Below, piece by piece: positions 32,793-62,434 of a DNA stretch of 64,000 nucleotides. Within the stretch, counting starts at the first letter, position 1. The number at the start of each line of letters is the position of its first letter. The notes beneath the pieces are model-generated. The model worked only from the letters and a program-made list of their open reading frames with translations. It was not told the DNA's origin and made no database searches. Source of the DNA: Acidobacteriota bacterium (GTDB taxonomy: Bacteria; Acidobacteriota; Terriglobia; Bryobacterales; UBA6623). The DNA is taken from positions 186,001 to 250,000 of the forward strand of contig WGMB01000010.1 in assembly GCA_016125275.1 (NCBI GenBank), written 5' to 3'. The position numbers and the translations under genes are program-made.

Positions 32793-33431
32793 ATGTTGCA
32801 CCAAGTCCTTCCCGTGGGGCCGTTGCAGTGTAACTGCTCGGTCTTCGGGGACCCCGCAACCGGGGCGGCGCTGGTCATCGATCCGGGCGACGATCTGGAC
32901 CGCATCGAAGCGCTCATGGAGCAGATGGGGCTGGACCACGTGGAGCGGATCGTGTTCACCCACGCCCACCTCGACCACATCGGCCAGGGCGCGGAGTTCA
33001 AACGCCGCACCGGCGCGCCGACCTACCTGCACCGGCTGGAGCTGCCCGTGCTGGCCTCGCTGCGCCAGCAGGCTTCGTGGATGCGCATGCCCGCGCCGGA
33101 GCCGGTGGAGATCGACGAGTTCTTGGAAGAGGGCGACCGTTTCGAGTTTGGCGGCGCCGAGTTCCAGGTGCTGTTCACGCCCGGGCACAGCCCCGGCAGC
33201 ATCAGCCTCTTCATCCCTTCGCTCCAACGCGTGATCGGCGGCGACGTGCTGTTCCGCGGCAGCATCGGCCGTACCGACCTGCCCGGCGGCGACCACGCCG
33301 CGCTGCTGCGCTCGATTCGCGACAAGCTGCTGCCTTTGGACGACGCGGTCGTCGTCTACCCCGGCCACGGCCCCGAGACCACCATCGGCGCCGAACGCCG
33401 CACGAATCCGTTCCTGCGTCAGGCGGGTTAG
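32793..33431 (+). CDS. MBL-fold hydrolase (glyoxalase II-like)
   Basis: A 212-residue cytosolic metallo-beta-lactamase-fold hydrolase. The metal-binding set is complete: FTHAHLDHIG, TPGHSPGS, GGDVLFRGSIGRTDL and YPGHGPETT. Sequence order and the RGSIGRTD segment fit the YcbL/glyoxalase II-like group, which hydrolyses thioesters such as lactoylglutathione. A TATTAT hexamer lies 7 bases upstream of the ATG and no ribosome site is apparent, so a leaderless start is likely. An isochorismatase-like gene follows after 3 bases. Confidence 0.9.
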   Translation: MLHQVLPVGPLQCNCSVFGDPATGAALVIDPGDDLDRIEALMEQMGLDHVERIVFTHAHLDHIGQGAEFKRRTGAPTYLHRLELPVLASLRQQASWMRMPAPEPVEIDEFLEEGDRFEFGGAEFQVLFTPGHSPGSISLFIPSLQRVIGGDVLFRGSIGRTDLPGGDHAALLRSIRDKLLPLDDAVVVYPGHGPETTIGAERRTNPFLRQAG

Positions 33432-33434
33432 CCG

Positions 33435-34013
33435 ATGTCTGCTTCCTGGACTCCCGATACCGGCCCCGGCCCGCACGAGCCCGGCGGCGCCGCGCTCGTC
33501 CTCATCGACCTGCAGGAGAAGCTGGCGCCGCACATCGACGGCATCGGCGAAGCGCTCGAAAACGTCCGCAAGCTGCTGGCGCTGGCCAAGCTCATTGACC
33601 TGCCGGTCCTCCTGACCACCCAGTACGCCAAGGGCCTGGGGCCGACCGTGCCGGCCGTCGCCGAAGCGCTCGACGTCGAGCCGATCGACAAGATCTGCTT
33701 CGGCTGCTTCCGCGACGAGGGCTTCCTGAAGGCGCTCGACGAACGCGTGGGCCCGCGGGCTACGCTGCTGCTGGCCGGCGTCGAGACGCACATCTGCGTG
33801 CTGCAGACCGCCTTGGGCGCGCTGGCCGCCGGTCGCTCCACCCATGTGCTGGCCGACGCCGCCGGATCGCGGTCCCGAGCCAACCACGAGCTCGGCTTGG
33901 CCCGCATGCGCCAGGCGGGATGCGTGATTTCATCCACCGAGATGGCGATCTATGAGCTGCTGGGCGACAGCCGCCGCCCGGAGTTCAAACAGATGCTTCC
34001 TTACCTCAAGTAG
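33435..34013 (+). CDS. Isochorismatase-like cysteine hydrolase
   Basis: A 192-residue cysteine hydrolase with the family triad: Asp25 (VLIDLQEK), Lys86 (DKICFGCF) and Cys121 (AGVETHICV). Family members hydrolyse amides or vinyl ethers; the YcaC/isochorismatase-like group to which this belongs has many unknown substrates. It begins 3 bases after the MBL hydrolase stop and is surely co-transcribed with it, so the two may act on one metabolite. Cytosolic, no signal. Confidence 0.88.
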   Translation: MSASWTPDTGPGPHEPGGAALVLIDLQEKLAPHIDGIGEALENVRKLLALAKLIDLPVLLTTQYAKGLGPTVPAVAEALDVEPIDKICFGCFRDEGFLKALDERVGPRATLLLAGVETHICVLQTALGALAAGRSTHVLADAAGSRSRANHELGLARMRQAGCVISSTEMAIYELLGDSRRPEFKQMLPYLK

Positions 34014-34082
34014 ATCCGCCCTGCTGACCGCCCTGGTTATCGATACCTGGTGCGCCTTGTTGCCGCCCGGCTCGCCCGGGGC

Positions 34083-34088
34083 TACCAT
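34083..34088 (+). promoter_or_regulatory. Candidate -10 element (TACCAT) for pdxS
   Basis: GGCTACCAT, 27 bases before the pdxS ATG, resembles the GC-TAnnAT hexamers ahead of other genes here. GGGAGAG between it and the start can act as ribosome site. Confidence 0.35.
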
Positions 34089-34115
34089 GAGGATTCCCGG
34101 GAGAGATTTCGCAAC

Positions 34116-35000
34116 ATGCACCACTCCGATGAGTATCGTTTGAAGGTCGGGCTCGCCGAGCAGCTCAAGGGCGGCGTCATTCTCGACGTGACCAACGCCG
34201 AACAGGCTGTGATTGCCGAAAAGGCGGGCGCGACGTCGGTGATGGCGCTGGAGCGCGTTCCGGCCGACATCCGCAAGGAAGGCGGCGTGGCCCGCATGGC
34301 CAGCATCTCGAAGATCCGCGAGATCATGGCCGCCGTCAGCATTCCCGTCATGGCCAAGGTGCGCATCGGCCACTTCACCGAGGCGCGGGTGCTCGAATCG
34401 CTCAAGGTCGATTACATCGACGAGAGCGAGGTGCTCACCCCGGCCGACGAGGAGCACCACGTCGACAAGCACGCCTTCCGGATTCCCTTCGTCTGCGGCG
34501 CCCGCAACCTGGGCGAGGCCCTGCGCCGCATCGCCGAGGGTGCGGCCATGATCCGCACCAAGGGCGAGGCCGGCTCCGGCAACATCGTCGAAGCCGTCCG
34601 TCACATGCGCACGATCCAGAAGGAGATGAAGCAGCTCACCGTGCTCGGCGAGGAAGAGCTGGCGACGGCGGCCAAGAACCACCAAGCCCCGCTCGATCTC
34701 ATCAAGATCGTCGCCAAGACCGGCAAGCTGCCGGTGCCGAACTTCTCCGCCGGCGGCATCGCCACCCCGGCCGACGCCGCGCTGGTGATGCAGCTCGGAG
34801 CCGAGGCCGTCTTCGTCGGCTCCGGCGTGTTCAAGTCCGAGGACCCCGAGCGGCGCGCCCGGGCCATCGTCAAGGCGGCCACCTACTTCAACGACCCCGA
34901 AAAGCTGCTCGAGGCCCACGAGGACCTCGGCGAGCCCATGCGCGGCATTGACATCGCGACGCTCGAGGAAACCGAGCTGATGCAGACGCGCGGCTGGTAG
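34116..35000 (+). CDS. pdxS: PLP synthase, synthase subunit
   Basis: A 294-residue TIM-barrel enzyme, exactly the usual PdxS length with the ATG at 34116. It makes pyridoxal 5'-phosphate from ribose 5-phosphate, glyceraldehyde 3-phosphate and ammonia. Asp24 (GVILDV), Lys81 (MAKVRIGHF), which forms the first Schiff base, and the [11 protein letters not shown] loop carrying the second catalytic Lys are present. It partners with PdxT, encoded next, in a 12+12 complex. A 16-bp hairpin separates the two genes. Confidence 0.97.
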
Positions 35001-35020
35001 CATGAACGCAAGAGCTTGAG

Positions 35021-35059
35021 AACAGGGGGCGTCCGCCGCCCGTGCGGACGCCCCCTGTT
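35021..35059 (+). promoter_or_regulatory. 16-bp perfect hairpin between pdxS and pdxT
   Basis: AACAGGGGGCGTCCGC (35021-35036) pairs perfectly with 35044-35059 around a 7-base loop. It starts 20 bases after the pdxS stop and ends 9 bases before the pdxT ATG, leaving no room for a normal ribosome site. No U-tract follows. It may attenuate read-through, protect the upstream RNA or be a mobile palindrome. Confidence 0.85.
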
Positions 35060-35068
35060 ACGTTTCCC

Positions 35069-35662
35069 ATGAACATCGGAGTGCTCGCCCTGCAGGGCGA
35101 TTTCGAAGCGCATCAACGCGCCCTCGAAGAGCTGGGCGTGAAGGCTTTCCAGGTCCGTTCCCAGGCCGACTTCGAGCGAGCCGACGCCCTCGTCATGCCG
35201 GGCGGCGAGAGCACCACCATGCTCCGGATTCTCGACGAGGAGAAGCTGGAAGAGCCGTTACTGGCTCTGGCGAAGGCCGGCAAGCCGATCCTGGCCACCT
35301 GCGCCGGCGTGATCCTGCTGGCGCGCGAGACCCGCTCGCCCTCCCAGCGCTGCTTCGGGCTGCTCGACGTGGCGGTGGTGCGCAACGGCTACGGCCGCCA
35401 GCTCGACAGCTCCATCCGCCGCTTGGAGCCGGCCCCGGCCGCCGCCGGCCGGCTGGGCTCCGAGCCTATCGAGTGCGTCTTCATCCGCGCCCCCATCATC
35501 TGTGAAGCCGGACCGGCGGTGGCGACCTTGCTGGCCGACGGCGACACGCCCGTGCTGGTGGAGCAAGGGCCGATCCTTGGCATCACGTTCCACCCGGAGC
35601 TGACCTCCGACCGCAGGATTCACCAGCTCTTTGTCGATAAAGTGAAGGCGTCGCTGCAATGA
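35069..35662 (+). CDS. pdxT: PLP synthase, glutaminase subunit
   Basis: A 197-residue class I glutamine amidotransferase that feeds ammonia to PdxS. The N-terminus MNIGVLALQGDFEAH is diagnostic. The MPGGEST oxyanion region, the nucleophile Cys78 (LATCAGVILLA) and the His-Glu pair (GITFHPELTSD) are all present. I chose ATG 35069; an upstream in-frame GTG at 35042 falls inside the hairpin loop region. No Shine-Dalgarno is visible. The stop overlaps the next gene (ATGA). Confidence 0.96.
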   Translation: MNIGVLALQGDFEAHQRALEELGVKAFQVRSQADFERADALVMPGGESTTMLRILDEEKLEEPLLALAKAGKPILATCAGVILLARETRSPSQRCFGLLDVAVVRNGYGRQLDSSIRRLEPAPAAAGRLGSEPIECVFIRAPIICEAGPAVATLLADGDTPVLVEQGPILGITFHPELTSDRRIHQLFVDKVKASLQ

Positions 35663-36090
35663 CCGCCTCGCCCCGACTCTATAAGGTGATGTTCGTGTGC
35701 ATCGGCAACTCCTGCCGCAGCCCGATGGCCGAGGCGATCGCCGCTACCAAGCACGCCGACCTGTTCGAGCCGTGCAGCGCGGGGGTCGCGCCGGCCACGA
35801 TCGTGCAGCCCTCCACCTTGCGCTGTCTGGAAGAGAAGGGCTTCCGGCTGGACCCGGCCAAGCAGCCCCAGCGGATCGAAACCTCGCCCTGGCGCGAGAT
35901 GGACGTCATCGTCAACATGAGCGGCGCGGGCATTCTGCCGTTCCTGCCCGGCTACAAGGGCGCCAACCTGATCTGGGAGGTCGCTGATCCGATGGGCCAG
36001 CCCATGTCGGCCTACCGCACCGCCCGCGACCGCATCGAATTGCACGTCGACAAGCTCGCCAAGATGCTGCGCTCGCACCGCGGCGCCTAG
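35659..36090 (+). CDS. Low-molecular-weight protein tyrosine phosphatase / arsenate reductase fold
   Basis: A 143-residue LMW-PTP-fold protein. The P-loop FVCIGNSCRSPMAEAI gives Cys14 and Arg20 (CX5R), and VADPMGQ near the C-terminus keeps the general-acid Asp-Pro. Whether it dephosphorylates tyrosine or reduces arsenate cannot be decided, because the thioredoxin-dependent arsenate reductase Cys pair later in the chain is not seen; phosphatase is more likely. It overlaps pdxT by 4 bases and is therefore in the pdx operon. Confidence 0.88.
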   Translation: MTASPRLYKVMFVCIGNSCRSPMAEAIAATKHADLFEPCSAGVAPATIVQPSTLRCLEEKGFRLDPAKQPQRIETSPWREMDVIVNMSGAGILPFLPGYKGANLIWEVADPMGQPMSAYRTARDRIELHVDKLAKMLRSHRGA

Positions 36091-36139
36091 TGCGCCTTTT
36101 GAGGCCTTTCGCCCCCTTGCTAGGCGCATCGGCGACCGC

Positions 36140-36145
36140 TAAGAT
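36140..36145 (+). promoter_or_regulatory. Candidate -10 element (TAAGAT) for the TonB-like gene
   Basis: CGCTAAGATACAGG is the only AT-rich, -10-like string between the phosphatase stop and the TonB-like gene. It would give a leader of about 55 bases to GTG 36208. No -35 is recognised. Confidence 0.35.
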
Positions 36146-36207
36146 ACAGGCTGCCGGGCAAGATCGTTGAGAATCCGCCTCCGGCGCCCAGGCGCATTCT
36201 TGTAACG

Positions 36208-37398
36208 GTGGAACAGCGCTTATCGTCGAAAGGAGTGTCCGAAGGCGAAGCGCTGAAGATGTCAGTGGAAACCATGCAACCGTTGAACACTCCCACGGGG
36301 AACCTTCCCCACTTGGGACTGGTGGAGTCGATCCACCGGCCCTGGTGGAGCACGTTCCTCGAAGAGGTCGGCGCCGCATTCAAACCGCAGGAGAAGTTGC
36401 CTCCGCTGCCGCAGTATCGGCCGGCCCTGCCGGGCGAGCTGGAGCTGGGACCGCTGAACCAGGAGACGCTGCGGACGCCTTGGTACAAGAACCTCGTGGA
36501 TGGCTTTCGGATCACGGCCGCTGAGAAGGCGATGCCGCCGTTCCAGCCCACCGCCGCGCCGGTCCAAGTCAAGCCGATCTGGGGCGCCTACGGCAACCGC
36601 GCCAAGGCCCTGCCGATCTCGCTGCTCGCACACCTGCTGGTGATCGTGCTGATCACCACGGTCTTTCGGGCCGCGCCGGTGGAAGCCAAGAGCGGCTCGG
36701 TGACGCTGATCATCCCGGTCGACATCAATCCCTACTTGGCGCAGTTGCAGATCAAGCCCAAGGCCAAGGCCGGCGACTCGGGCGGCGGCGGCGGCGGCGG
36801 CACCAACTCGCCCCTGCCTCCGAGCAAGGGCAAGCTGCCGCGCTTCAAGATGGAGCAGCTCGCGCCTCCGCAAGCGGTAATCCTGAACGAGACCCCGAAG
36901 CTGGCGGTGGAGCCGAGCGTGGTGGTGCCGCCGGACGTGACCATGCCCAAGGTCGACATCGCGGCCTTCGGCGATCCGCTGGGTAAGATCGGGCTGCCCT
37001 CCAACGGCCCCGGCTCCGGCGGCGGCATCGGCACCGGCCGCGGCGGCGGCGTGGGTTCGGGCAGCGGCAGCGGCGTCGGCCCCGGTTCGGGCGGCGGCAT
37101 CGGCGGCGGCGCCTTCCGCGTGGGCGGCGGCGTCAGCGCTCCGGCCCTGCTGCGCAAGGTCGAGCCGGAATACTCCGAGGAGGCCCGCAAGGCCAAGTAC
37201 CAGGGCACGGTCCAGTTGGCCGTGGAAGTCTGGCCCGACGGCCGCGCTCACAACATCCGCGTGATCCGCAGCCTCGGCCTGGGTCTGGACGAGAAGGCCA
37301 TCGAGGCCGTGCAGCAGTGGCAGTTCGCACCCGGCAAGAAGGACGGCGCGCCCGTCAAGGTGCAAGCCACCATCGAAGTCAACTTCCGCCTGCTCTAG
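36208..37398 (+). CDS. TonB-family energy transducer with long duplicated cytoplasmic N-terminus
   Basis: A protein of up to 396 residues. A single membrane helix (LPISLLAHLLVIVLITTVF, about 135-153) separates a cytoplasmic part of about 130 residues from a periplasmic part with a Gly-rich linker (about 190-310) and a C-terminal TonB domain (about 312-396, PEYSEEARKAKYQGTVQLAV). The cytoplasmic part contains a repeated motif, PWWSTFLEE...EKLPPLPQ and PWYKNLVDG...EKAMPPFQ, which ordinary TonB lacks. The start is uncertain: GTG 36208 or ATG 36259. ExbB/ExbD are not adjacent. It could energise the large receptor at 1.3-4.5 kb. Confidence 0.85.
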   Translation: MEQRLSSKGVSEGEALKMSVETMQPLNTPTGNLPHLGLVESIHRPWWSTFLEEVGAAFKPQEKLPPLPQYRPALPGELELGPLNQETLRTPWYKNLVDGFRITAAEKAMPPFQPTAAPVQVKPIWGAYGNRAKALPISLLAHLLVIVLITTVFRAAPVEAKSGSVTLIIPVDINPYLAQLQIKPKAKAGDSGGGGGGGTNSPLPPSKGKLPRFKMEQLAPPQAVILNETPKLAVEPSVVVPPDVTMPKVDIAAFGDPLGKIGLPSNGPGSGGGIGTGRGGGVGSGSGSGVGPGSGGGIGGGAFRVGGGVSAPALLRKVEPEYSEEARKAKYQGTVQLAVEVWPDGRAHNIRVIRSLGLGLDEKAIEAVQQWQFAPGKKDGAPVKVQATIEVNFRLL

Positions 37399-61884: not shown

Positions 61885-61916
61885 CGGGCCGGTTAAATCG
61901 CCGTAAAACCGGCCCG
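61885..61916. repeat. 10-bp inverted repeat in a divergent intergenic region
   Basis: CGGGCCGGTT (61885-61894) pairs with AACCGGCCCG (61907-61916) across 12 bases. It lies between the oxidoreductase start and the small basic-protein gene, a place suited to an operator. No gene for a regulator is adjacent. Confidence 0.55.
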
Positions 61917-62404: not shown

Positions 62405-62434
62405 GGGAACGGCCGCCCCCGGGCGGCCCTTCCC
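62405..62434 (+). terminator. Strong hairpin behind the small basic secreted protein
   Basis: GGCCGCCC (62411-62418) pairs with GGGCGGCC (62421-62428), and the flanks GGGAA/TTCCC (62405-62409 and 62430-62434) extend the stem. It follows the stop by 18 bases. The 3' arm ends in CTTCCC rather than a U-tract. Confidence 0.6.

Follow-up and report, generated by a model that had tools for sequence, protein, structure and literature searches.

A perfect hairpin between pdxS and pdxT as a probable internal, leaky terminator in a GC-rich genome

The window analyzed here is a stretch of 64,000 nt (contig C20, positions 186001–250000) from a genome of 7.55 Mb. On its forward strand, it encodes the two subunits of PLP synthase: the lyase subunit PdxS (34116–35000, 294 aa), which is matched by the NCBIfam models NF003215 and TIGR00343 above their cut-offs as well as by Pfam SOR_SNZ, and the glutaminase subunit PdxT (35069–35662), which is matched by TIGR03800 above its cut-off. 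Both identities pass NCBIfam equivalog cut-offs, and the nearest titled relatives of PdxT belong to Bryobacteraceae and other Acidobacteria MAGs. The two genes are co-directional and contribute to one complex, the arrangement expected around an internal operon terminator that sets stoichiometry; the gap between them is 68 nt. They are followed on the same strand by an ORF of the low-molecular-weight phosphatase family (35659–36090, Pfam LMWPc), which shares its first 4 nt with the last ones of pdxT; it would be the next gene to depend on read-through from pdxS. A scan of 33400–36500 found no sigma-70-like promoter serving pdxT alone, so a strong terminator in the gap would starve pdxT.

The gap contains a hairpin, which an earlier note, made from the sequence alone, had described as perfect over 16 bases and as ending 9 bases before the pdxT start. 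This description is accurate: its arms (35021–35036 and 35044–35059, forward strand) comprise 16 nt each, are 100% complementary and enclose a 7-nt loop (35037–35043), and 9 nt separate the end of the stem at 35059 from the pdxT ATG at 35069. The stem begins 20 nt 3' of the pdxS stop codon TAG (34998–35000). Its 5' arm consists of an AACA foot and a G-rich core from 35025 onward, and the final TGTT of its 3' arm is also the beginning of a T tract, TGTTACGTTT, which is interrupted and lies partly inside the stem. The region 35001–35085 folds with −38.2 kcal/mol, compared with a mean of −25.9 kcal/mol (sd 3.1) for 200 shuffles, none of which folds as well. The hairpin itself reaches −34.9 kcal/mol in the scoring of post-stop hairpins described below and, with its perfect 16-bp stem, represents the stable GC-rich hairpin that is typical of intrinsic terminators. 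By base composition, perfect arms of at least 16 nt with loops of 3–12 nt are expected about 0.014 times per Mb, or 0.10 times per genome, and simulated sequences (2 × 0.8 Mb) held no perfect arms of at least 13 nt; within 1.2 Mb sampled from this genome, four hairpins have arms of at least 16 nt and such loops, including the one after pdxS. A search of 34900–35200 with the Rfam covariance models, up to E = 1, gave just two matches, with 17 and 13 bits against the 50 and 48 bits needed.

How this hairpin relates to others in the genome was assessed in a sample of 1.199 of the 7.553 Mb, in which genes were called with our own hexamer script. We scored the first 80 nt beyond each stop codon, ending at the next gene if it was nearer, in the 497 gaps that measured 20 nt or more, of which 120 were convergent and 377 tandem, allowing for one mismatch and loops of 3–10 nt; hairpins within genes, found with no mismatch and loops of 3–8 nt, served as a control. 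Convergent gaps were examined from both strands, so that one hairpin may count once per strand. Hairpins of −20 kcal/mol or better were found in 32 of the 120 convergent gaps, in 21 of the 148 tandem gaps of more than 100 nt and in 16 of the 229 tandem gaps of 20–100 nt. The hairpin after pdxS ranks first among these 229 short tandem gaps and fourth among all 497. The strong post-stop hairpins (n = 107) often begin 15–30 nt after the stop codon (25/45 in convergent, 17/36 in long tandem and 17/25 in short tandem gaps), a zone in which the pdxS hairpin, at 20 nt, also falls. In ten other pairs with a short-gap hairpin that were inspected, the two genes mostly seem unrelated by eye, and the pdxS hairpin may therefore simply mark a transcript end. 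Another member of this class within the window, a hairpin at 62405–62434 that scores −23.2 kcal/mol and occupies a tandem gap of 98 nt, precedes a gene of 1569 aa that looks helicase-like by eye; it is the second strongest among the post-stop hairpins listed for the window.

The likeness to this class extends to the sequence that follows the GC core. The 12 nt at 35056–35067, TGTTACGTTTCC, which we predict to be the zone of transcript 3' ends, form a broken tail with six Ts. In the genome sample, where the tail was long enough for a T count in 106 and for a terminator score in 105 of the strong hairpins, the mean number of Ts in 12 nt was 4.5 in convergent and 4.2 in short tandem gaps, compared with 2.2 for hairpins within genes (n = 195; Mann–Whitney p = 3e-10 and 3e-6, respectively). 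Six or more Ts, as in the pdxS tail, occur in 20 of 45 convergent hairpins and in 2 of 195 in-gene hairpins. Likewise, the terminator score of the pdxS hairpin, 28.9, is reached by 14/45 convergent and 1/195 in-gene hairpins. This score is a rough guide only, because seven of the 195 in-gene hairpins equal the pdxS hairpin in the weighted tail measure alone and 29 of them score above zero. A terminator scan with the standard rule does not call the pdxS hairpin, because its T tract is broken and partly placed within the stem.

Terminators within operons are a known kind of element, of which the pdxS hairpin would be a good example, ordinary in kind. The available part of PMC9045158 describes internal terminators with longer GC stems, fewer U and a U tract paired to 5' bases; it reports that they set the ratio of the flanking transcripts and that their termination efficiency is tied to tail and stem, and suggests that they protect the upstream transcript. 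All three structural marks recur in the pdxS hairpin, which, like the elements of the Ruminiclostridium cellulolyticum ABC importer operons described there, consists of one stem-loop after the first gene of a cluster. While the R. cellulolyticum elements sit after genes for substrate-binding proteins and their termination was demonstrated by Northern blot, the element described here lies between pdxS and pdxT in a GC-rich genome of another phylum, and its termination is a prediction (PMC9045158). With canonical Rho-independent terminators, it has in common the GC-rich stem shortly after a stop codon and the T-rich 3' side, but it differs from them in its broken T tract, in its position between two genes of the same pathway and in failing the scan rule. 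In another GC-rich genome, that of Streptomyces clavuligerus, the part of the Term-seq study available to us (PMC8269248) reports highly structured 3' ends that lack U, as well as I-shaped terminators; some strong stems with poor U tracts lie inside transcription unit clusters, where such non-terminal sites alter the transcript level between genes. The pdxS hairpin resembles these ends in its strong stem, its poor U tract and its GC-rich genome, and, given that its tail is enriched in T relative to in-gene hairpins, it stands between the U-rich and the U-lacking classes. The literature available to us on the pdxS/pdxT operon, its stoichiometry and its cotranscription describes no terminator between the two genes, in the parts that could be consulted.

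The stem also adjoins a start codon with little support from a ribosome site. As the earlier note had claimed, no such site precedes pdxT: the anti-SD duplex energy 5' of its ATG is +0.7 kcal/mol, with no SD match, and a match this weak or weaker is found at 12% of 587 called ATG starts. Missing SD sequences are common in this genome; the SD is weaker than −3 kcal/mol at 40% of 77 unambiguous starts, and called starts overall are similar to shuffles (median −3.0 versus −2.9 kcal/mol). An SD bridged across the stem appears unlikely, as the stretch 5' of the stem gives a weak match of −2.1 kcal/mol. An in-frame GTG at 35042, inside the hairpin, is a possible alternative start that would add nine residues ahead of the Met at 35069; the ATG is favored, because position 2 of the TIGR03800 profile aligns with residue 3 of the ATG form. 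Elsewhere in the genome, outside the window (C20:145004–145037), a perfect 14-bp hairpin, flanked by genes that by eye resemble gyrB and an MscS channel gene, carries AGGAGG within its 3' arm, immediately upstream of the called start, and possibly hides a ribosome site.

We then looked at the pdxS–pdxT junction in relatives, in a comparison set that includes no other genome of the window's genus. From 130 loci of the family and a wider set, 6 did not have pdxS directly upstream and 122 non-identical ones of the other 124 were kept; strong PdxT matches at five places (G032:C50, G033, G027, G045 and G051) were left out. A search of the phylum matched 73 of 297 genomes, with partial matches in G154, G223 and G111 left out, and gave 119 loci, of which 19 lacked pdxS within the stretch examined (282 nt long in one case) and one had no pdxT after pdxS. 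After removal of two identical ones (including L232, which repeats genome G019) from the remaining 99 junctions, 97 distinct junctions were obtained, with gaps of less than 20 nt in 50, of 20–39 nt in 10, of 40–150 nt in 24 and of greater length in 13. In the family f4 (e.g. L214, L224, L230 and L241), pdxT is found without pdxS in the upstream stretch examined; as 15 of the 19 pdxS-lacking loci belong to f4, the two genes appear unlinked in many of its genomes.

The window's hairpin is lineage-specific. Within the same family, it is shared by none of the 15 junctions, the gaps of which (4–85 nt) are unrelated in sequence; among the 11 distinct family gaps of at least 40 nt, only that of L043 has a clear hairpin, a different one. 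In the phylum, every gap of at least 40 nt was searched over its first 110 nt for a hairpin with a positive score that was better than that of each of 40 shuffles. Eight of 37 gaps passed (those of the window, L256, L252, L258, L248, L217, L259 and L043) and 29 failed; in 18 of the 37, the script had no hairpin to score. Set beside the 37 of 377 tandem gaps that reach −20 kcal/mol in the window's genome alone, this proportion was obtained by differing criteria and need not mean an excess over other gene pairs. L252 and L256, which belong to one genus (g35) of the same class as the window's genome, share a hairpin that, like the window's, follows pdxS, opens with ACAG and closes with CTGT, and in L252 pdxT starts 14 nt past the stem in a similar geometry; unlike the window's, this hairpin has an uninterrupted T6 tail, is otherwise unrelated in sequence and is common to two genomes of one genus. 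The wider set, which includes another collection, adds gap hairpins in L055 and L051 (titled Bryobacterales) and one with a T-rich tail in L101 (titled Alphaproteobacteria). The earlier note had held that a lack of conservation in relatives would argue against regulation: at the level of the family the comparison does so, though similar hairpins reappear in other parts of the phylum. These sequences suggest several separate origins for terminator-like hairpins downstream of pdxS.

Crystal structures of the 24-mer suggest that PdxS and PdxT occur one to one. A structure inside the operon had appeared unexpected to the earlier note, for which the two proteins were needed in equal number. This premise is doubtful: as far as the available part of PMC11708016 goes, native PdxS 12-mers without PdxT were found in Methanosarcina lysate, sub-stoichiometric complexes in S. 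aureus are cited, and the occupancy or expression of PdxT is suggested to be often low. An element that yields more PdxS than PdxT is therefore not contradictory.

We consider the hairpin most likely to be an intrinsic terminator internal to the operon, probably a leaky one, that is also a 3' stabilizer of the pdxS mRNA, through which more PdxS than PdxT would be made, and assign this reading a probability of about two in three. RNA polymerase would clear the GC core and slow down on the broken T tract, the 12-bp GC core would fold, and a fraction of the transcripts would end upstream of pdxT. The pairing of AACA with TGTT would lengthen the hairpin, which may also protect the 3' end of pdxS, and the 20 nt separating the stop codon from the stem possibly give the last pdxS ribosome time to move off before the RNA folds. 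Transcripts of pdxT and the phosphatase gene would come from the polymerases that read through; on such RNA, the stem, 9 nt upstream of an ATG without SD, would probably cut pdxT translation further, with an excess of PdxS over PdxT as the outcome. Of what the earlier note had proposed, a tuning of read-through together with a stabilization of pdxS RNA is the best supported option, in that position, stem and tail match the terminator-like class, with termination itself as a prediction. This reading best explains the location 15–30 nt after the stop, the T-rich tail, the score, the recurrence in the phylum and the likeness to published internal terminators; the failure under the standard rule, the broken T tract, the lack of conservation in the family and the lack of a promoter for pdxT count against it. 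A broader idea, that PLP synthase needs its glutaminase only sub-stoichiometrically and that a terminator following pdxS was acquired on several occasions by lineages of this phylum and serves to keep PdxS in excess, with the window's hairpin as the strongest one seen, is tentative and, on balance, unlikely.

Much the same stem could serve without any real termination, if polymerase read through, a nuclease cut downstream and the hairpin blocked 3' exonucleases. The great stability of the stem (−34.9 kcal/mol) and the broken T tract are in line with this, and differential decay is a known route to unequal expression within operons (PMC5927463, in the part available to us); however, T-rich tails typify the hairpin class and are unnecessary for protection, and the overall terminator score is among the higher ones, so that we give this explanation a rather low chance. 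Less probable still is a block of pdxT translation, in which the stem beside the SD-less start lowers ribosome loading whatever transcription does. It would account for the proximity to the ATG and its poor SD match, and among the remaining 24 strong stems in short gaps, 5 likewise end 0–10 nt ahead of a called start, but it leaves the T-rich tail unexplained, and the same distance from the stop codon is found in convergent gaps, where no start follows. We regard it as similarly improbable that the hairpin is without function, either as the former terminator of a separate unit or as a neutral palindrome retained by chance in one lineage: its absence from the rest of the family, in a set with no second genome of the genus, would fit, yet its perfect 16-bp pairing and the occurrence of similar hairpins downstream of pdxS in further lineages do not.

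Finally, the earlier note had raised the possibility of a transposed palindrome copied around the genome and into this gap, which can be dismissed with near certainty. Palindromic elements do seem, by eye, to be present in the same gap in L209 and L227; but in the window's genome, a DNA search of all 7.55 Mb finds the hairpin as a single copy, which as a palindrome gives a match on each strand, and not in the many copies of a REP-like dispersed repeat. Allowing up to two mismatches, the arm pattern occurs at 11 other scattered places, compared with 5 for a reversed control, and no two neighboring arms are found among these 11, which refutes a repeat at that sensitivity. The decamer CAGGGGGCGT occurs six times on both strands of the 1.2-Mb sample, five times in intergenic sequence; two occurrences are the arms of the pdxS hairpin and two, by reading, lie in a hairpin at C14:145522, and with four of six occurrences thus falling in two hairpins, no repeat family is seen. 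The latter hairpin (C14:145522–145552, outside the window) lies between convergent genes and resembles the pdxS hairpin in the decamer and in a GTTTCCC tail, a likeness that probably reflects shared composition. As for L209 (identical in sequence to L047) and L227, their pdxS–pdxT gaps of 170 and 174 nt are flanked by inverted, partly tandem repeats of CAGTCCT type and of CCACGGAGGCACGGAG type, which by eye look like dispersed palindromic elements.

The hairpin offers a cheap handle on a question of vitamin B6 synthesis, namely whether PdxS and PdxT are made one to one or PdxT is kept scarce. Moreover, post-stop hairpins form a large class in this GC-rich genome, and many have broken T tracts; a standard rule for terminators may overlook such hairpins, and did so for the one after pdxS. 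A further structure in the window, at 61885–61916 (C20:247885–247916), has a perfect 10-bp stem with a 12-nt loop and lies between divergent genes; it may act as an operator and not as a terminator.
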